Source of the DNA: Anaerolineaceae bacterium oral taxon 439
GTDB taxonomy: Bacteria; Chloroflexota; Anaerolineae; Anaerolineales; Anaerolineaceae
Reading direction: 5' to 3'
Assembly (NCBI GenBank): GCA_001717545.1
Contig: CP017039.1
Location: 806,001-870,000 of the forward strand
DNA length: 64,000 bases
Shown: in pieces, positions 583 to 58,558 of the stretch
Layout: every line of letters begins with the position of its first letter
Position numbering within the stretch: position 1 is the stretch's first letter
The notes under the pieces: generated by a model
The model's input: only the letters and a program-made list of their open reading frames with translations
What the model was told of the DNA's origin: nothing
Databases searched by the model: none
Program-made: the position numbers and the translations under genes

Positions 583-1626
583 ATGTCCATTTTCGCGGAT
601 ATCCGCAAGAACTTTGGCGATTTCCGCCTCGACGTCCAATTTTCCGGCGGGAACGAGATCATCGCGCTGTTGGGGGCGTCCGGCTGCGGAAAGAGCATGA
701 CGCTGAAATCGATTGCGGGGATCGAGAAGCCGGACAGCGGAAAGATTATGGTCGACGGCGTGGATCTGTTCGATTCCGGGGCGCGGATCCATCTCACGCC
801 GCAGCAGCGTCGGACCGGGCTGCTTTTTCAGAGCTACGCGCTCTTTCCGAATATGACCGTCCAGCAGAATATTCAGGCTGGGGCGCGGCGCGAAAAAAAC
901 AGTGCCCAACGCGCCAGACTGACCGAATCTGTGATCGAAAGCTTCGGGCTGCGCAGGCTGGTTAACCGGTATCCGAGCCAGCTTTCCGGCGGGCAGCAGC
1001 AGCGCGTCGCGTTGGCGCGGATCCTGGTCTCCGGACCGAGGATCCTGCTGCTGGACGAGCCGTTTTCTGCGCTGGACAGTCATTTACGCTTTCAGCTCGA
1101 ACGCGAGGTCGGCGAGGTTTTACGCGGGTTTGGGAAAACGGTGATCCTCGTTTCGCATGACCAGGAGGAGGTTTATCGTTTGGCGGATAAAATCGCGGTT
1201 ATGAACGCGGGGCGGATCGAGCGGTTCGGGTTGAAGGACGAGGTTTTTTCGGACCCGCGGACGAAAAGCGCGGCGCGGCTGACCGGGTACAAGAATCTTT
1301 CGCGGGGAGAGCGGCTCGGCGAGACGCGGTTTTACGCGGCGGACTGGGGCGCGGAGCTGACGGTCCGGGGCGAAAGCTCGGACGGGACGTACGCCGCGAT
1401 CCGCGCCCGCGATCTCCGGCCGGCCGGGGACGGAGACGGGATCGATTGCCGAGTGGAACGGGCGGTCGAGAATCCGTTTACGTACACGCTGGTTTTGAAG
1501 GCGGCTGAAACGGCGGGGACGAAGGCGCTGCTTTGGGAGGTCGATAAAACGTGGTGGGAGGCGAACCGATCGGAACGCATCCGCGTCGAGCTTCCGCCGG
1601 AGCGTGTCGCGATCGTTGGCGATTAG
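583..1626 (+). CDS. modC: Molybdate-type ABC transporter ATPase
   Basis: A 347-residue ABC ATPase that powers import through the preceding permease. Walker A is GASGCGKS at residues 31-38, the signature is LSGGQQQR, Walker B is ILLLDEP, and the switch histidine is in LVSHDQEE. After the nucleotide-binding domain about 110 residues remain, compatible with a TOBE/MOP-like oxyanion-sensing regulatory domain, although I see no clear motif there. It starts three bases after modB and is followed by an 86-bp gap containing a short inverted repeat (CCTTCCG near 1635, CGGAAGG near 1660). ModC is preferred over CysA or PotA because of the molybdopterin genes downstream. Confidence 0.85.
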   Translation: MSIFADIRKNFGDFRLDVQFSGGNEIIALLGASGCGKSMTLKSIAGIEKPDSGKIMVDGVDLFDSGARIHLTPQQRRTGLLFQSYALFPNMTVQQNIQAGARREKNSAQRARLTESVIESFGLRRLVNRYPSQLSGGQQQRVALARILVSGPRILLLDEPFSALDSHLRFQLEREVGEVLRGFGKTVILVSHDQEEVYRLADKIAVMNAGRIERFGLKDEVFSDPRTKSAARLTGYKNLSRGERLGETRFYAADWGAELTVRGESSDGTYAAIRARDLRPAGDGDGIDCRVERAVENPFTYTLVLKAAETAGTKALLWEVDKTWWEANRSERIRVELPPERVAIVGD

Positions 1627-1712
1627 AAGCTCTTCCTTCCGGATCGGTATTCAGGATCGGAAGGCCCCGGCGTTGAGGCGGGGGATCAGGAAGGGCAGGA
1701 AAGGGGAAAGTT

Positions 1713-2729
1713 ATGAAAAAGGTCAGGGTAGAAGAAGCGGTCGGGATGGCGATTTGCCATGATATCACCGCGATGCGCGATGGGTTCAAGGGCGCGGCGT
1801 TTAAACGGGGGCACGTTATCCGTAAGGAGGATATTCCGAGCTTACTGGATATCGGGAAGCGTACGGTTTTCGTCTGGGAGGAGAACGCGGGCGAAATTCA
1901 TGAGGAGGACGCCGCCCGGCGCATGGCGGCGATGGCGCCGGTCGAGGGCGCGGTTTACGAGGGCCCATCCGAGGGAAAAATGACGCTGATCGCGGAGCGC
2001 CGCGGGATGTTCCGGGTTGACCGGGAGCTGCTGCGGTTGATAAATCTGATCGGCGATCTGACGATTTGCACCCTCCCGGACCATTATCCGGTCGAGGCCG
2101 GGATGAAGCTCGCGTCGATGCGAATCGTGCCGCTGGTTACGAAGGAAACGCAGCTGATTCAGGCGGAAGAGCTCTGCGCAGGGAGGAAGCTGTTGAATCT
2201 CCGCCCGTATCGGGAATTGAAGGTTGGGGTCCTGATTACCGGGTCGGAGGTGTATTCCGGACGAATTCAGGACAGGTTTGAGGGGGTTGTTCGCGCGAAG
2301 CTGAGCCGGTATCCGGCGGAGATCGCCGGCGTTTCGATCTGCGACGACGATTTGGAGATGATTACGGCGGAGGCGGAGAAGTACCTGGCTCAGGGCGCGG
2401 ATTTCCTGATTTTTACCGGCGGGATGTCGGTCGATCCTGACGACCTGACGCCGGGCGCGATCCGCCGGCTCGGCGCGGAAATCGTGACGCATGGCGTTCC
2501 GGCGCAGCCGGGGAACATGACGCTGATCGCGTATCGGGACGGCGTGACGATGATGGGCGTTCCCGGCTCGGCGATCAGCGTGCCGGTAACGATGTTTGAC
2601 GTGCTGCTGCCTCAGGTTTTCACCGGCGACCGCTTTACGAAGGAGACGCTCGTCGGTTTAGGGGAAGGCGGCCTCTGTCAGCCCGGCTCGGGGGCTCATT
2701 TCCCCGACTGCACGTTTGGACGGTATTAA
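1713..2729 (+). CDS. Molybdopterin-binding protein, MoeA-like domain
   Basis: A 338-residue protein whose residues of about 168-310 form a MoCF/MoeA-type molybdopterin-binding domain: LITGSEVYSG, then FTGGMSVDPDDLTPGA, then a GVPGS loop. The N-terminal half resembles the divergent molybdopterin-binding proteins that accompany molybdenum enzymes rather than canonical MoeA, which is longer. The C-terminus ends in a Cys-rich tail with HFPDCTFGRY, typical of that subgroup. The Shine-Dalgarno GGAAAGGGG sits just before the ATG. It lies between molybdate uptake genes and a MogA-like gene, so a role in inserting or sensing molybdopterin/Mo cofactor is inferred. Whether it is a true molybdotransferase cannot be told from sequence alone. 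Confidence 0.8.
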   Translation: MKKVRVEEAVGMAICHDITAMRDGFKGAAFKRGHVIRKEDIPSLLDIGKRTVFVWEENAGEIHEEDAARRMAAMAPVEGAVYEGPSEGKMTLIAERRGMFRVDRELLRLINLIGDLTICTLPDHYPVEAGMKLASMRIVPLVTKETQLIQAEELCAGRKLLNLRPYRELKVGVLITGSEVYSGRIQDRFEGVVRAKLSRYPAEIAGVSICDDDLEMITAEAEKYLAQGADFLIFTGGMSVDPDDLTPGAIRRLGAEIVTHGVPAQPGNMTLIAYRDGVTMMGVPGSAISVPVTMFDVLLPQVFTGDRFTKETLVGLGEGGLCQPGSGAHFPDCTFGRY

Positions 2730-50645: not shown

Positions 50646-50669
50646 AAGGGGAAAGGAAGCGGGTTGCCG

Positions 50670-52424
50670 ATGAATTTGGGAAAAAGGTTCCATATTGCCC
50701 GGATGTTCGGGTATTCGGGCGAATACCGAAAGTACGCGATCCTGACGCCGCTGCTGGTATTGGTCGAATGTTTTTTTGATATTCTGATCCCGTACCTGAT
50801 GGCGATGATGATCGACGTCGGGATCGTCAGGGGCGACGTGGATTACGTCGTTAGAATCGGGCTGCTGATGATCCTGTTCGCGGTTATTTCGATGATTTTC
50901 GGGACGATCGCGGCGCGGACGGCGGTCGTCGGATCGTCCGGCTTCGCGATGAATATCCGGCGGCTGATTTTCGGGAAGATCGAGGATTTCGCGTTCAGGA
51001 ATACTGAAAGGTTTGGGACGGCATCGCTGATAACGCGGCTGACGACGGATATTTCCTTCGTTCAGCAGATGTACCAGATGGTGACGCGGCTGTTCGTACG
51101 CGCACCGGCGATGGCGTTGTTCGCGACGGTTATGGCCGTTCGGATCAATCGAACGTTGTCGTTCGTCTTTTTCATATCTATTCCGCTCCTGCTCTTCGCG
51201 ATCGTTTTTATGATCCGCAAGGCGCATCCGCGCTTTATCTCGTACCTGGATAAGATGGACAGCATGAACGCGAACGTTCAGGAGAACCTGATCGCGATCC
51301 GCGTCGTCAAGGCGTTCGTTCGCGAACGGCACGAGAAAGAGAAATTTGAAATTACGTCGAAGGAAGTCCGCGCGGCTCAGGTTTTAGCGGAAAAGGTGGT
51401 GATTTGGGGAATGCCGATGATGATGTTCATGATGAACGCGTCGATCGTAGCGATTCTCTGGTTCGGCGGGAAGCTGATTGTCGGCGGCGGGATGCTTCCC
51501 GGAGAGCTTTTCAGCTTCCTGACCTATTCGCAGCAGATCATGATCGCGTTGATGATGATTTCGATGGTTTTCGCGATGTACGTTATTTCGCAGGCGTCGG
51601 TCAGGCGGATCCTCGACGTAATCGACGAACCGCTTTCGATGACCGACGAGGCGGGAGACCCGGATCTGAAGGTTCCCGACGGTTCGATCGAGTTCCGGAA
51701 CGTTAATTTCAGTTATGCCGCGGACGCGGAGAAGTTGACGCTGAAGAATATCAACGTCCGGATCGAGTCGGGCGAGACGATCGGGATTATTGGAGGGACC
51801 GGGTCGGGAAAATCGACCTTCGTTCAGCTTATCCCGAGGCTTTACGACGTTTTATCCGGCGAGGTCCTTGTCGGGGGGCATGACGTCCGTTCGTATAAGT
51901 TCAGGGAGCTGCGCGATTCGGTCGCGATCGTGCTGCAGAAAAACGTCCTCTTTTCGGGGACGATCGAATCAAACCTGCGTTGGGGCGATCCGGATGCGAC
52001 CCAGTCGGAGATCGAGCTGGCGGCGAAGACGGCGCAGGCGCATGACTTTATCCTGAGTTTCCCGGAGGGGTACCAGACCGATCTGGGGCAGGGCGGGGTT
52101 AATGTCTCCGGCGGCCAGAAACAGCGGATCAGTATCGCGCGGACGCTGCTCAAGAAGCCGAAGATCATCATTCTGGACGATTCGACGAGCGCGATCGACG
52201 TGGCGACGGAAGCGAAATTCCGGCGTGCGTTCCGCGAAAACTACGCCGATACGACCAACCTGATCATCGCGCAGCGGGTCAGTTCGGTCATGAACGCCGA
52301 TCGGATCCTCGTTATCGACGAGGGGAAGATCGTCGCTTTTGGGAAACATGCAGAGTTGATGGAAAGCTGCGCGATTTATCGGGAAACCTACGAATCACAG
52401 CAGAAAGGGGTTGTGGGCGAATGA
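50670..52424 (+). CDS. ABC exporter half-transporter 1
   Basis: 584 residues from ATG 50670 (AGGAAG upstream; TTG 50664 is an alternative). Six helices (about 20-320) form the transmembrane domain, with EENLIAIRVVKAFVRE-like NVQENLIAIRVVKAFVRERHE as the family's coupling segment. The NBD has GGTGSGKS (375-382), VSGGQKQR, IIILDDSTSAID (Walker B Glu replaced by Asp after the aspartate, LDDS, as in the degenerate site of heterodimeric exporters) and a switch Gln in IAQRVSSV, replacing His. These degenerate residues mark this as the non-catalytic half of a heterodimer with the next protein. Confidence 0.9.
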   Translation: MNLGKRFHIARMFGYSGEYRKYAILTPLLVLVECFFDILIPYLMAMMIDVGIVRGDVDYVVRIGLLMILFAVISMIFGTIAARTAVVGSSGFAMNIRRLIFGKIEDFAFRNTERFGTASLITRLTTDISFVQQMYQMVTRLFVRAPAMALFATVMAVRINRTLSFVFFISIPLLLFAIVFMIRKAHPRFISYLDKMDSMNANVQENLIAIRVVKAFVRERHEKEKFEITSKEVRAAQVLAEKVVIWGMPMMMFMMNASIVAILWFGGKLIVGGGMLPGELFSFLTYSQQIMIALMMISMVFAMYVISQASVRRILDVIDEPLSMTDEAGDPDLKVPDGSIEFRNVNFSYAADAEKLTLKNINVRIESGETIGIIGGTGSGKSTFVQLIPRLYDVLSGEVLVGGHDVRSYKFRELRDSVAIVLQKNVLFSGTIESNLRWGDPDATQSEIELAAKTAQAHDFILSFPEGYQTDLGQGGVNVSGGQKQRISIARTLLKKPKIIILDDSTSAIDVATEAKFRRAFRENYADTTNLIIAQRVSSVMNADRILVIDEGKIVAFGKHAELMESCAIYRETYESQQKGVVGE

Positions 52425-54298
52425 ACCAGGAGAAAGGGACGGCTGAGAAAGAGGCGCTGCGGAACGCCTCGGTATGGAAGACGCTGCTGCGGATCCTGGT
52501 TTACCTGAAGGACTACAGGCTGCAGCTGGTCCTGGCGCTGCTGATGGCGGTTGTGACGGCGGTCGCTTCGGTCGGGGGAACGTACCTGCTCCGGTCGGTT
52601 ATTAACGACGCGATTGTCCCGCTGATTGGAAGCGAATCCCCGGACTTCGCGCCGCTGATCCGGATCCTGACGCGGATGGGAGCGATTTACCTGATGGGGA
52701 TCGCGACGAGTTATTTTTCCGGACTGATTATGGTTTACGTCAGTTCCGGCATGCTGCTGCGGCTGCGGATCGACATGTTTTCCAAGGTCGAGTCGCTTCC
52801 GATCGGCTATTTTGACAGCCGGACGCACGGCGAGATCATGAGCCATTTTACCAACGATGCGCAGACGATGCGCGAGATGGTTGGGAATTCGCTCCCGAAC
52901 CTGATCAACAGCCTGATTTCGATTATCGGCGTGGTCGCGATGATGATCGTCTTGAGCTGGAAGCTTTTCCTGCTGGTCCTGATCCAGGTGGGGTTTATTT
53001 TCCTGGTTGTCCGGATCGTCGGCGGCCGCGGTCAGAAATATTACCGCGCGCAGCAGACAGATCTGGCCGCGGTTAACGGTTACGCCGAGGAATATATCGA
53101 GGGCCAGAAGGTCGTCAAGGTCTTTTCGCACGAGGCGGAGGTCAAGAAGCAGTTTGACGTCCTGAGCCGGGATCTTTTCGATTCAGGTTCAGAATCGCAG
53201 TCGTTTTCGCTGATGGTGATGCCGATCCTGGCGAACGCGTCATACGTTCATTACGCGTTAACCGCGATGGCAGGGGCAGTGCTGACGATTCATGGGATGA
53301 TGGATATCGGGACGATCGGGTCGTTTCTTCAGTATACGCGGAACTTCACCATGCCGATCAATAACATTTCGCAGCAGCTGAACGCGATTTTCGCGGCGGT
53401 CGCGGGGGCGGAACGGATTTTCAGCCTGCTGGACGAGCGTCCTGAGATCGACGATGGCGGAGTCGAGCTGGTCGAGGCGCCGGCGGACGATCCGGCGATG
53501 AGCGAGGCGGTCGGGGGAATGGCCTGGCGAACGGTTCGCGACGGGAAGCCGGCTTTGATTCCGTTCCGCGGGGACGTCCGTTTTCATGACGTCACGTTTT
53601 CTTACGTTCCCGGCGAGCCGATCCTGAAGAACGTCAGCCTCTACGCCAAGCCGGGTCAGAAAATCGCGTTCGTCGGTTCGACGGGCGCGGGGAAAACGAC
53701 GGTGATCAACCTGATTACGCGGTTCTACGACGTCGATTCGGGAATGATTACGATCGATGGGATCGATATCCGTGAAATCCGAAAGGACAGCCTGCGTTCG
53801 TCGCTCGGGATGGTCCTTCAGGATACGCACCTGTTTACCGGGACGGTCATGGAAAATATCCGCTACGGGCGGCTGGCGGCGACGGACGCCGAGGTTATCG
53901 CGGCGGCGAAGGCGGCGAACGCCGATTCGTTCATCCGCCATCTTCCGGACGGGTACCAGACGATGATCGTGAACGATGGGATGAACCTGAGCCAGGGCCA
54001 GCGCCAGCTGCTGGCGATCGCGCGGGCGGCGGTCGCGGATCCGCCGATCCTGATCCTGGACGAGGCGACGTCTTCGATCGATACGCGGACGGAAATGCTG
54101 ATTTCGCGAGCGATGGATCGGTTGATGGAAAACCGGACAGTCTTCGTCATCGCGCACCGGTTATCGACGGTCCGGAATTCGAACGCGATTATTGTCCTGG
54201 AACATGGCGAAATTATTGAGCGCGGGGACCATCAGGCCCTGATCGATTCGCGCGGGCGCTATTATCGCTTATCGACCGGTCAGGCGGAATTAGCTTAG
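52421..54298 (+). CDS. ABC exporter half-transporter 2
   Basis: 625 residues, overlapping the previous stop by four bases (ATGA). Membrane domain about 30-350, with AVNGYAEEYIEGQKVVKVFSHE; NBD with GSTGAGKT (419-426), LSQGQRQLLAIARA, ILILDEATSSID and switch His in IAHRLST. It has the intact catalytic Glu and His, so it should supply the competent residues of the composite ATP site with half 1. A linker of about 45 residues rich in Glu, Ala and Pro joins the two domains. MarR-controlled heterodimers of this kind commonly expel drugs or lipids; the substrate is unknown. Confidence 0.92.
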   Translation: MNQEKGTAEKEALRNASVWKTLLRILVYLKDYRLQLVLALLMAVVTAVASVGGTYLLRSVINDAIVPLIGSESPDFAPLIRILTRMGAIYLMGIATSYFSGLIMVYVSSGMLLRLRIDMFSKVESLPIGYFDSRTHGEIMSHFTNDAQTMREMVGNSLPNLINSLISIIGVVAMMIVLSWKLFLLVLIQVGFIFLVVRIVGGRGQKYYRAQQTDLAAVNGYAEEYIEGQKVVKVFSHEAEVKKQFDVLSRDLFDSGSESQSFSLMVMPILANASYVHYALTAMAGAVLTIHGMMDIGTIGSFLQYTRNFTMPINNISQQLNAIFAAVAGAERIFSLLDERPEIDDGGVELVEAPADDPAMSEAVGGMAWRTVRDGKPALIPFRGDVRFHDVTFSYVPGEPILKNVSLYAKPGQKIAFVGSTGAGKTTVINLITRFYDVDSGMITIDGIDIREIRKDSLRSSLGMVLQDTHLFTGTVMENIRYGRLAATDAEVIAAAKAANADSFIRHLPDGYQTMIVNDGMNLSQGQRQLLAIARAAVADPPILILDEATSSIDTRTEMLISRAMDRLMENRTVFVIAHRLSTVRNSNAIIVLEHGEIIERGDHQALIDSRGRYYRLSTGQAELA

Positions 54299-55158: not shown

Positions 55159-57066
55159 ATGGACTATGGATTTATTAAGGCCGCGGCCTGTTCGCCCGAG
55201 GTGATCGTGGCGGACCCGGGCGCGAACGCCGAGGCGGTAATCGCCCGGATCGCGGAGTCCGTCACGGCGGGCGCGCGGATCGCGGTTTTTCCGGAATTGG
55301 CGCTGACCGGGAATAGATGCGGCGATCTGCTGCGGCAGCGTGCGCTGTTGGACGCGGCGGAGGCGTCGCTCGCGCGGATCGTTTCGGCGACGGCGGGGTC
55401 GGAAATCTTCGTCGTCGTCGGGCTGCCGCTCCGGCGGGAGGGGCGGATTTACAACGTCGCGGCGGCGGTCGCGAACGGCAGGATTTCAGGCGTCGTCCCG
55501 AAGAGCTGGATTTCCGGAAACGGAGACGTTTTCGCTTCAGGGCAGGGACTGGGCGGAACGGCGAGGATTCTCGGCGAAGAGGTCCCGTTTGGGACGGACC
55601 TGCTGTTCCGTTGCGTCGAGCTGCCGGCGCTGACGATCGGGATCGAAATCGGCGACGATGCGGAGCTTCCGGTCCCGCCGTCGATTGCGGCCGCGGCGGC
55701 GGGCGCGACGGTTCTTGCGAATAGCTCCGCCTGTCCCGAGGTCGTTGGAAAGGCAGGGGCGCGGCGTGCGTTCCTTCGCGCGGTCTCGGCGCGGCTTCAG
55801 GCCGGATATATCTCCGCGGAAGCGGGATTCGGAGAGTCGACGACGGACGCGGTCTTCTCGGGCCAGGATCTTATCGCCGAAAACGGCGAGATCCTCGCGG
55901 AGAGCGAACCGTTCGGCGCCGGATTCGCGGTCAGCGAACTCGATCTGGAGCTGATCCTGAATGAGCGGCGGCGGACGCGGCGGCCCGACGCGGCGGGGGA
56001 GCGCAATTTCCGGATGATCCCGTTTTCGCTGACGAAACGGCGGACGGCGCTGACGCGGCGGTTCAGCGCGACGCCGTTTGTCCCGGACGACGATGCTGAG
56101 CTGGCGGCGCGCTGTGAAACGATTTTCGCGATTCAGCGGACCGGGCTGGCGACGCGGTTGGAACGGGCGCGCGTTCATTCAGCGGTTCTGGGAATTTCCG
56201 GCGGGCTGGATTCAACGCTGGCGCTCCTGGTTGCGGCCCGGGCGATGAAAGCGCTGGACTGGCCGATGAGCCGGATCGTGGCGGTGACGATGCCCGGGTT
56301 TGGGACGACGGCGCGGACAAAGTCGAACGCGGTAAAGATGTGCGAGGCGATCGGCGCGACGGTCCGGGAAATCCCGATTGGGCCTGCCGTGCGGCGGCAT
56401 TTTGAGGACCTGGGGCATGATCCGAACAATTATTCGCTTTTGTACGAAAACGCGCAGGCGCGCGAGCGGACGCAGATCCTGATGGACGTCTGCCATCAGG
56501 TGGACGGGCTGGTCGTTGGAACGGGGGACCTTTCGGAGCTGGCGCTGGGCTGGGCGACGTATAACGGGGATCATATGAGCATGTACGGGGTTAACGGCGG
56601 GGTCCCGAAGACGCTGGTCCGCTGCCTCGTCCGCCATGCCGCGGCGACAACGGAGAATGGGGCGCTGAAAGCGGTCCTGTTCGACGTATTGGATACGCCG
56701 GTCAGTCCGGAGCTGCTTCCGTCCGCGGGCGGAACGACGACGCAGCTGACCGAGTCGATCCTGGGATCGTATGAGCTGCATGACTTCTATCTGTACATGA
56801 CGGTCCGGCGCGGGTTCTCGCCGCGGAAGACGCTGTACCTGGCGGAGCGCGCGTTCGCCGGTCGGGCGGATCGGGCGCGGCTGCGCGGGACGTTGACGAC
56901 GTTCCTGAAGCGGTTTTTCACGAATCAGTTCAAGCGTTCCTGCCTTCCGGACGGTCCGAAGGTCGGATCGGTCGGGCTTTCTCCGCGCGGCGATTGGCGG
57001 ATGCCCTCGGACGCGGCGGTTCAGGTCTGGCTGGACGATCTGGCGCGGGAGGACGAGCTTGATTAG
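55159..57066 (+). CDS. nadE: Glutamine-type NAD synthetase with altered amidase site
   Basis: 635 residues. A nitrilase-type amidase domain (about 1-275) is followed by an NAD synthetase domain (about 310-630) with the ATP pyrophosphatase loop GISGGLDS (345-352), TKSNAVKMCEAIG and GDLSELALGWATYNGDHM. It should convert deamido-NAD to NAD using ammonia made from glutamine. The amidase triad is normally Glu-Lys-Cys: Glu46 (FPELALTG) and Lys115 (VVPKSWI) are present, but the position of the nucleophile (usually in IEICEDLW) reads IEIGDDAE, with Gly165. A Cys in the later SSACPEVVG is not the usual position. So glutamine hydrolysis is doubtful and free ammonia may be used. The promoter at 55091 precedes it. 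Confidence 0.85.
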   Translation: MDYGFIKAAACSPEVIVADPGANAEAVIARIAESVTAGARIAVFPELALTGNRCGDLLRQRALLDAAEASLARIVSATAGSEIFVVVGLPLRREGRIYNVAAAVANGRISGVVPKSWISGNGDVFASGQGLGGTARILGEEVPFGTDLLFRCVELPALTIGIEIGDDAELPVPPSIAAAAAGATVLANSSACPEVVGKAGARRAFLRAVSARLQAGYISAEAGFGESTTDAVFSGQDLIAENGEILAESEPFGAGFAVSELDLELILNERRRTRRPDAAGERNFRMIPFSLTKRRTALTRRFSATPFVPDDDAELAARCETIFAIQRTGLATRLERARVHSAVLGISGGLDSTLALLVAARAMKALDWPMSRIVAVTMPGFGTTARTKSNAVKMCEAIGATVREIPIGPAVRRHFEDLGHDPNNYSLLYENAQARERTQILMDVCHQVDGLVVGTGDLSELALGWATYNGDHMSMYGVNGGVPKTLVRCLVRHAAATTENGALKAVLFDVLDTPVSPELLPSAGGTTTQLTESILGSYELHDFYLYMTVRRGFSPRKTLYLAERAFAGRADRARLRGTLTTFLKRFFTNQFKRSCLPDGPKVGSVGLSPRGDWRMPSDAAVQVWLDDLAREDELD

Positions 57067-58330
57067 ACGGCTGCGCTGGGTTCTTTTGGCGGCGCTGCCG
57101 CTGCTTTGCGGGGCCTGTTCGCTGGTCGAGATTGCGTTGGACGTTACGCCGGCCGCGGCGGATCGGACGGCGACGCCGCTGATCAATATTGCTTCGCTGC
57201 CGACGCTGCCGCGGTTGGCGGCAGAAGCGACGGCGACGCCGGAAGTCAGCGAGGCTCCGGCGAACGGCGAAGGTTCGATCGCTTACGATAACGAACCGGA
57301 TATTTTCCGGAATTACGCCGGCGACGATTATGCGGCGGAAAAGGGAGCTGCGGTCAGGCTCCGGGGCCGGGTCGGAACGATCCTGCCCGATTCGTTCGAG
57401 CTGAGCGAAACCTGGGCGGACGTGACGGTGGAATGCGACGACGGCTGTTTCCTGACGGACGGAGCGAAGCGGCAGCTGGGTTTTTCGAGCCTTCAGCAGG
57501 GCGACGAGACGATCGTTTTCGGCGCGACGGACGGGGACGACGCGGCGATTATTATCGCGGACCTGATCGTCGTCCGCGACCCGAAGCGGACCGCCGCGGT
57601 CCAGTTCGACCCGGAAGCGCTGGCGCTTCCGTACGGGTTCCACTATGCCGAATATGCGCTGGCGGGCGCGCCGGAACTGAGCCCGTTGTCGTTTGAAACG
57701 AAAACGGGCGAGCTCGACGTTCCTGAGACGCTGGCGGGCCGGCTGAAATTGTCGCTTTCGGAGCGGAGCCGGTTCGCGTATGGGGCGTACGGCGAGGTTT
57801 ACAGTACCGGTACGGAGTATACGAATCCGATGAACCGCGCGGCCGGGTATCCGACGCGGGCGCAGCTGAGCGTTTATTCGAACGCGTATGAGTTTTTCAC
57901 GATGTGGTTCCCGTACGCTGCCGCCCCCTTCCCGCAGGTCCTGGGAATTTTAAATTACGGTGGGGACTGGTTCTTACCGCTGCGGCTGACGGTCGATATT
58001 GATCCGGATCCGGCGGTTTCCGAGATCGTCAGCGGCGATCGGACGATCATGAGCCAGCTGAATTTTGACCGTGCCTACGGGTATGTCCGGACGTTCGGCC
58101 TGTCTATTTTGAATTCGACCCTGTTTTATTTTTATGAGCGGGAGAACGGGCTGGGATTCTCGTTGAACCGGACGGATTACGCGCTTGGATTTGACGAAAT
58201 TCTTTTCGGTCAGATCCGCCCGTATGCGGAGCTGAATCCTTTTTATTCGGATTACCTGATCGCGTTTTTCGGGAAGCGCGGCGAGAGCTGGTATTACGCG
58301 GAGGTCACGGCGGATCCGCCGGCGTATTAA
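57059..58330 (+). CDS. Uncharacterised lipoprotein coupled to nadE
   Basis: 423 residues, TTG start inside the nadE end with GGAGG before it. A lipoprotein signal LLCGAC gives a lipidated Cys at about position 20, then a low-complexity Ala/Thr/Pro stretch (26-70). Residues about 95-180 resemble a small beta-barrel (AVRLRGRVGTILPDSFELSETWADVTVECDD; VVFGATDGDDAAIIIADLIVV), maybe OB-like. The remaining 240 residues are aromatic-rich with no recognisable motif (YEFFTMWFPYAAAPFPQVLGI; FYFYERENGLGF). The role is unknown and not obviously related to NAD. Confidence 0.7.
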   Translation: MIRRLRWVLLAALPLLCGACSLVEIALDVTPAAADRTATPLINIASLPTLPRLAAEATATPEVSEAPANGEGSIAYDNEPDIFRNYAGDDYAAEKGAAVRLRGRVGTILPDSFELSETWADVTVECDDGCFLTDGAKRQLGFSSLQQGDETIVFGATDGDDAAIIIADLIVVRDPKRTAAVQFDPEALALPYGFHYAEYALAGAPELSPLSFETKTGELDVPETLAGRLKLSLSERSRFAYGAYGEVYSTGTEYTNPMNRAAGYPTRAQLSVYSNAYEFFTMWFPYAAAPFPQVLGILNYGGDWFLPLRLTVDIDPDPAVSEIVSGDRTIMSQLNFDRAYGYVRTFGLSILNSTLFYFYERENGLGFSLNRTDYALGFDEILFGQIRPYAELNPFYSDYLIAFFGKRGESWYYAEVTADPPAY

Positions 58331-58458: not shown

Positions 58459-58545
58459 GGAGAGGTGCCGGAGTGGTTGAACGGGGCGGTCTCGAAAACC
58501 GTTAAAGACGCAAGTCTTTCGAGGGTTCGAATCCCTCCTTCTCCG
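58459..58545 (+). tRNA. tRNA-Ser, anticodon CGA (reads UCG)
   Basis: 87 nt. The acceptor stem GGAGAGG (58459-58465) pairs with CTTCTCC (58538-58544) with one G-U. The anticodon loop CTCGAAA gives CGA at 58493-58495. A long variable arm of class II type follows, and the T arm GAGGG-TTCGAAT-CCCTC is perfect (58521-58537). The discriminator is G and no CCA is encoded. A UCG-reading tRNA fits the GC-rich codon use of the surrounding genes (many tcg codons). Confidence 0.96.
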
Positions 58546-58558
58546 CTAATATCAAAAT

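Follow-up and report, generated by a model that had tools for sequence, protein, structure and literature searches.

The two-domain NAD synthetase of Anaerolineaceae bacterium oral taxon 439 lacks the glutaminase nucleophile and is probably ammonia-dependent

NAD synthetases have been sorted into fused, clustered, remote and none types (De Ingeniis 2012, PMC3376133). In the portions of that paper available to us, glutamine is the donor for those fused enzymes that have been characterised, a single ancient event of fusion or fission is inferred, with fusion the likelier, and glutamine use follows a rule that takes signature elements and an extended C-terminal loop as "necessary and sufficient", two exceptions apart; none of the types set out there is a fused enzyme whose glutaminase is dead. 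For fused NadE, and in particular that of Mycobacterium tuberculosis (tbNadE), PMC6946656 reports that free ammonia is a substrate, that glutaminase tetramers form the core of the octamer, and that the YRE loop contacts the ligand of the glutaminase, stabilises the catalytic Lys by way of Glu132 and, like Tyr58, is part of the bottleneck between the glutamine and ammonia tunnels. Fused NAD synthetases get named glutamine-dependent from their domain content, and no report of a natural NadE without the catalytic Cys was found in the open literature among the top matches listed.

We analysed a window of 64,000 nucleotides from the genome of taxon 439 that contains a fused nadE (Table 1). The product scored 757.3 bits with NF002730 (NCBIfam cut-off 473; residues 2-631), and Pfam recognised CN_hydrolase (PF00795, 39 bits, residues 8-266) followed by NAD_synthase (PF02540, 92.8 bits, residues 330-546). 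The synthetase (PP-loop) motifs are intact, including SGGLDS, and 103/106 conserved positions are kept. The C-terminal stretch aligns to the very end of tbNadE and is taken to be the extended loop said to mark glutamine users; the rule in PMC3376133 would probably call the taxon 439 enzyme a glutamine user. In the surroundings of the gene, a 423-aa ORF (57059-58330) with no Pfam match and an N terminus that looks lipoprotein-like by eye overlaps the end of nadE by 8 bases, a tRNA-Ser (cga) at 58459-58546 overlaps a mechanical 111-aa ORF, and two adjoining ABC transporter genes (PF00664 and PF00005), then an opposite-strand methyltransferase, occupy 50664-54298.

Table 1. Position of nadE, its domains and the residues of the glutaminase site and tunnels (window coordinates)
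Feature	Coordinates	Strand	Basis
nadE, fused NAD(+) synthase, 635 aa	55159..57066	+	ATG start; NF002730; best PDB match M. tuberculosis NadE
Nitrilase-fold amidase (putative pseudo-glutaminase) domain, about residues 1-283	55159..56007	+	PF00795 39 bits; AF2 model; VIA-align
Glu46 = M. tuberculosis Glu52, kept	55294..55296	+	alignment
Asn52 = M. tuberculosis Tyr58 (constriction 1), lost	55312..55314	+	alignment; Tyr58 role from PMC6946656
Lys115 = M. tuberculosis Lys121, kept	55501..55503	+	alignment
YRE-loop remnant Ser119-Phe125, 5 residues shorter, without M. tuberculosis Tyr131/Glu132/Arg134	55513..55533	+	alignment
Gly165 (codon GGC) at nucleophile Cys176 of M. tuberculosis	55651..55653	+	alignment, codon reading
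Asp166 at M. tuberculosis Glu177	55654..55656	+	alignment
Glu169 at Trp/Phe180 gate of glutamine tunnel	55663..55665	+	alignment; gate role from PMC6946656
Cys192 (of SACPEVVG) at M. tuberculosis Ser203	55732..55734	+	alignment
Synthetase domain, about residues 312-635; SGGLDS at 347-352 intact	56092..57063	+	PF02540 92.8 bits
Lys601 = M. tuberculosis Lys644 (tunnel constriction 2A), kept	56959..56961	+	alignment; role from PMC6946656
Asp612 = M. tuberculosis Asp656, kept	56992..56994	+	alignment

The initial annotation had read this protein as an NAD synthetase with an intact synthetase half and an amidase domain that keeps its fold and the Glu and Lys of the active site, with Gly in place of the expected Cys. 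Alignment with tbNadE, in which these residues correspond to Cys176, Glu52 and Lys121, and the results below confirm that description; the shortened YRE loop and the changes Y58N, E177D, W180E and S203C had gone unnoticed in it. The Cys-Glu-Lys triad is thus incomplete, with Glu46 and Lys115 present and the Cys replaced by Gly165, and the second Glu (Glu132), carried on the YRE loop, is absent. At position 180 Trp is usual, M. tuberculosis itself has Phe, and the taxon 439 enzyme has Glu. For Asp656 a tunnel role is presumed here and was not found in PMC6946656. An AlphaFold2 model from 20 sequences (mean pLDDT 85.1) predicted the amidase fold with confidence, and superposed on tbNadE over 624 residues (Z 46.6, 2.2 Å) and on the solved nitrilases 6ypa (Z 30.3, 251 residues, 2.4 Å) and 3ivz (Z 30.1, 246 residues, 2.3 Å). 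The structure matches also include the engineered C176A mutants of tbNadE 3sdb, 3seq, 3sez and 3szg, three of which, going by their entry titles, crystallised with synthetase ligands.

We assessed the extent of change over 163 aligned rows, of which 140 bear the Cys, after fragments (L007, L009), short sequences (L053, L056, L057, L120) and duplicates (L138, L168) had been dropped. Positions conserved in at least 95% of the Cys-bearing rows were treated as near-invariant, which gave 52 positions in the amidase and 106 in the synthetase domain. Taxon 439 NadE departs at 13/52 of the amidase positions. Among the 140 Cys-bearing rows the median departure is 0, the 95th percentile lies at 3 and the most divergent row reaches 9; these rows are a non-random sample, in which the 80 named loci are the best 80 of 592 and resemble the genus of taxon 439. 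Only 3/106 of the synthetase positions are changed, which indicates that the glutaminase site has decayed and not the whole protein. Pocket residues, listed from PMC6946656 apart from Ser203, were enriched among the changes in taxon 439 NadE with C176 excluded (p = 0.005), and not significantly in three other enzymes without the Cys that are described below (L003, p = 0.30; L061, p = 0.24; L080, p = 0.16). Measured against the synthetase, the amidase of taxon 439 NadE evolves at no higher rate than that of enzymes with the Cys (ratio 1.69 versus a median of 1.75), which is what continued use of the fold would predict. Ser203 was added to the pocket list as a residue that we take to belong there. 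A sequencing or base-calling error was ruled out by the multi-site change, its recurrence and the turnover of Gly codons.

We label the genus of taxon 439 g1, and another genus of the same family g16. The family survey gave matches in 30/147 genomes (E ≤ 1e-30), all within these two genera, and in a wider search of relatives 34/56 matches outside them sit in frames of 265-325 aa, which by their length would be single-domain NadE. Among the seven g1 genomes readable at the nucleophile site, five have Cys (G002, G008, G009, G010, G011), and Gly is found in taxon 439 and G001 (locus L003); G007 is a fragment ending before the site, and six more g1 genomes gave no match in the relatives search. 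Gly165, which had been put forward for checking as a possible clade feature, is therefore not one of the genus. In g16, where the site adjoins a deletion and the column rests on the alignment, Gly was read in 21/22 loci and L050 has a gap. All four Gly codons are in use there (codons read in 18/22 loci), which indicates that Gly itself is kept; a strained nucleophile elbow may favour it. Of the 19 full g16 rows, 8 retain Glu52 and at least 17 lack Lys121; most of the YRE loop has disappeared, and all 19 have other residues at Lys644 and Asp656, with Gly or Ala at the latter.

Of the 80 named loci (best 80 of 592), 78 have the Cys, the exceptions being two clostridial MAGs with an altered YRE loop, L061 (Oscillospiraceae, Ser) and L080 (Lachnospiraceae, Gly, with Gly also at Asp656). 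In the phylum survey 81/400 genomes matched, and the 29 further loci read, out of 80 other matching genomes, all have Cys; 3 more, of g16, were read from the family survey. In the family sample of L080 259/299 genomes matched, and among the best 30 of 259 only L080 itself is without Cys. Fifteen genomes, including those of L003, L061 and L080 and seven of g16, each have one strong PF02540 match (85-109 bits) in a frame of 603-680 aa, any further match scoring at most 37 bits. Some Cys-bearing enzymes are also altered at the site. L006 (G008, g1), the sister of L003 in the tree, carries Y131N and W180G at positions that change also in Cys-less enzymes, and is possibly an intermediate. L129 and L133 (Lachnospiraceae) have Ala in place of the adjacent Glu177 (CADVW) and an altered YRE loop, so that their competence as glutaminases looks doubtful.

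With 109 rows in the synthetase-domain tree, loss of the Cys required five changes, every one of them imposed by well-supported branches; with 50 chosen rows it again required five, four of them forced. A single loss common to taxon 439 NadE and g16 was rejected (AU p = 0.000135; p = 0.007 with L003 added), whereas one common to taxon 439 NadE and L003 was not (p = 0.26), which leaves four or five losses; g1 and g16 as one clade was likewise not rejected (p = 0.30). The four isolated losses (taxon 439 NadE, L003, L061 and L080) share the same five additional changed positions, Tyr58, Pro125, Glu129, Tyr131 and Ser203, each altered in at most 3/140 Cys-bearing rows, and this overlap was reached in 0/200,000 random draws of a permutation that treats the four losses as independent. 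Tyr58 is replaced by a smaller residue in all four (Asn, Ala, Ser, Cys). Glu52 and Lys121 are unchanged throughout. Glu132, absent from taxon 439 NadE, persists in the other three (L003, L061, L080), and Glu177 in L003 and L080. The pattern looks like a signature of lost activity.

Amidase rates in the four isolated losses compared with 34 Cys-keeping terminal branches gave p = 0.06, and in 12 g16 branches p = 0.03; the amidase rate ratio on the g16 stem is 2.96, which is a later stage of decay. A model of one g16 member, L046 (pLDDT 83.9), has nitrilase and synthetase folds; its amidase superposes on a solved amidase over 235 residues (Z 24.8, 3.6 Å), and at whole length it matches tbNadE with Z 38.1 and an rmsd of 21 Å over 560 residues, in the model another arrangement of the two domains. 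The L046 model fits human NadE far better (3.3 Å over 566 residues), and its sequence is nearer tbNadE (31% identity) than human NadE (17%). The decay may have been staged, the pocket going first, the tunnel residues Lys644 and Asp656 next, and Glu and Lys last.

The taxon 439 genome is a single contig of 2,945,494 bases, 99.89% complete. The earlier call for a second nadE to be looked for was followed up, and a protein search of this contig at E ≤ 1 returned only the enzyme itself. PF02540 gave four further weak matches (20-25 bits, above the Pfam cut-off, covering 24-69 of 242 positions), which NCBIfam names as MnmA, LarE, GuaA and a GuaA paralogue. PF00795 matched nadE alone in the genome; since this profile failed to pick up the amidase of some g16 NadE in which that domain has decayed, another nitrilase in a similar state could escape it. 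In a panel of 12 genomes (taxon 439, five congeners and six of g16) matches were absent for the ammonium transporter Amt (PF00909; 0/12, control 14/14), for PF04960 glutaminase (0/12, control 4/14) and for NadA (0/12, control 12/14). The absence of NadA suggests that NAD is probably made by salvage, and salvage from nicotinate still needs NadE. All three absences are common to the Cys-keeping congeners; that of Amt is compatible with the use of free ammonia, although being shared it does not explain which lineages lost the Cys.

Taken as a whole, taxon 439 NadE is very probably an NAD synthetase that depends on ammonia, derives from a fused, glutamine-using ancestor and keeps its dead glutaminase as a scaffold. 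The synthetase half would adenylate nicotinic acid adenine dinucleotide and then amidate it with free NH3, and the N-terminal nitrilase domain would be retained as a fold that no longer hydrolyses glutamine. From these alignments and searches we infer the loss of glutaminase activity, given that the thiol nucleophile is missing along with most of the YRE loop, second Glu included, and the use of free NH3 as donor in vivo. The scaffold role would have its cause, most likely, in the glutaminase domains of this subfamily building the octamer core and carrying the ammonia path. The retention of Glu52 and Lys121 in all four isolated losses, and of Glu132 in three, argues against a mere scaffold, which would not need them.

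Between the two outcomes first proposed for this enzyme, free ammonia or a substitute Cys such as that of SACPEVVG, free ammonia is the better supported, the nucleophile and second Glu being gone and a second NadE, another nitrilase and PF04960 not having been found. The substitute, Cys192, would attack glutamine with Glu46 and Lys115, both of which are kept, and it lies in the stretch after the invariant Asn199 of the glutaminase domain; a nearby Cys also occurs at M. tuberculosis position 201 in L080 and 6/19 g16 rows, where all 140 Cys-bearing rows have Ser. Neither 201 nor 203 is the nucleophile position, however, and L003 and L061 have Cys at neither. At 203 itself L003 and L080 have Gly, L061 has Thr and 0/19 g16 rows have Cys; the g16 enzymes largely lack the Lys (at least 17/19 rows) and often the Glu (11/19) that such a nucleophile would need, and in taxon 439 NadE the loop with the second Glu, which positions the substrate and the Lys, has been cut. 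The changes shared by the isolated losses likewise argue against a moved nucleophile, the Cys at 201 notwithstanding, and we consider the substitution very unlikely. Similarly improbable is a separate glutaminase that gives ammonia in trans, leaving the enzyme glutamine-dependent in the cell. NAD synthetases of two subunits, one of them a nitrilase in its own right, are known (type C/R, PMC3376133), and 5/6 g16 genomes tested have a separate nitrilase-family match (G028, G129, G130, G137, G138), but G120 of g16 has no CN_hydrolase match at all, the taxon 439 genome has neither another such match nor a PF04960 glutaminase, and the enzyme's own amidase domain should still fill the docking place of a trans glutaminase. 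We give little credence to re-use of the domain as a sensor of glutamine or some other bound metabolite that regulates the synthetase, since, although the fold, Glu46 and Lys115 are kept and the amidase evolves no faster than in active enzymes, the residues by which tbNadE contacts or holds its glutamine (Tyr127, the YRE loop, Glu177, Phe/Trp180) are replaced or deleted.

An ammonia-dependent enzyme with a disabled glutaminase may also be seen as one instance of a class of two-domain NAD synthetases, limited to ammonia, that has arisen repeatedly. In such a class the nucleophile would be lost together with an opening of the old glutamine tunnel, the dead glutaminase serving as ammonia porthole and assembly core. 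This extension is speculative and on balance doubtful, the proposed opening through Tyr58 and loop loss depending on the residue roles given in PMC6946656. Several lineages repeat a natural progression in which the glutaminase domain goes from active, through loss of the Cys, to complete decay. This progression lets the domain's role beyond ammonia production be tested, and it suggests that an amidotransferase can give up glutamine for ammonia again when one of its domains is disabled but not deleted.

The same Cys-to-Gly change is seen in the GuaA (GMP synthase) paralogue, L034 (507 aa; NF000848, 633 bits; 718-2241, minus strand; contig C1 2076897-2078420, outside the window), which is 50% identical to the other GuaA of the genome, L033. 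Its class I glutaminase motif reads LGIGLG against LGICYG in L033, and QFFLEA against QFHPEV (His to Phe); the roles of the Cys and His in these motifs are assumed. The N-terminal domain falls below its NCBIfam cut-off (155.7 versus 172.15 bits) and the C-terminal domain above (431.7 versus 338.75 bits). By these motifs and scores L034 is another predicted pseudo-glutaminase amidotransferase of taxon 439, and a return to ammonia among glutamine enzymes may be habitual in the lineage.

Compared with known systems, taxon 439 NadE resembles tbNadE (3dla, 3syt, 6ofc) in its two-domain architecture, whole-length fold (Z about 46), synthetase motifs and glutaminase-site Glu and Lys, and differs in the natural Cys-to-Gly replacement, the cut YRE loop and the changed tunnel gate residues; the Cys-less crystal forms of tbNadE are engineered, whereas the taxon 439 form is natural. 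It scores well within PRK02628/NF002730, type F (757 versus 473 bits), but lacks the catalytic nucleophile and would break the rule that type F uses glutamine. With the single-domain, NH3-dependent type N enzymes of Escherichia coli and Bacillus subtilis it would share free ammonia as its predicted donor; unlike them, it keeps an amidase domain, predicted to fold but disabled. The parallel with carbamoyl-phosphate synthetase 1 lies in the retention of an inactive glutaminase domain whose catalytic Cys is replaced (Ser294 in the human enzyme, according to PMC4655335), although that vertebrate urea-cycle enzyme has another glutaminase fold, with a Cys-His-Glu triad.
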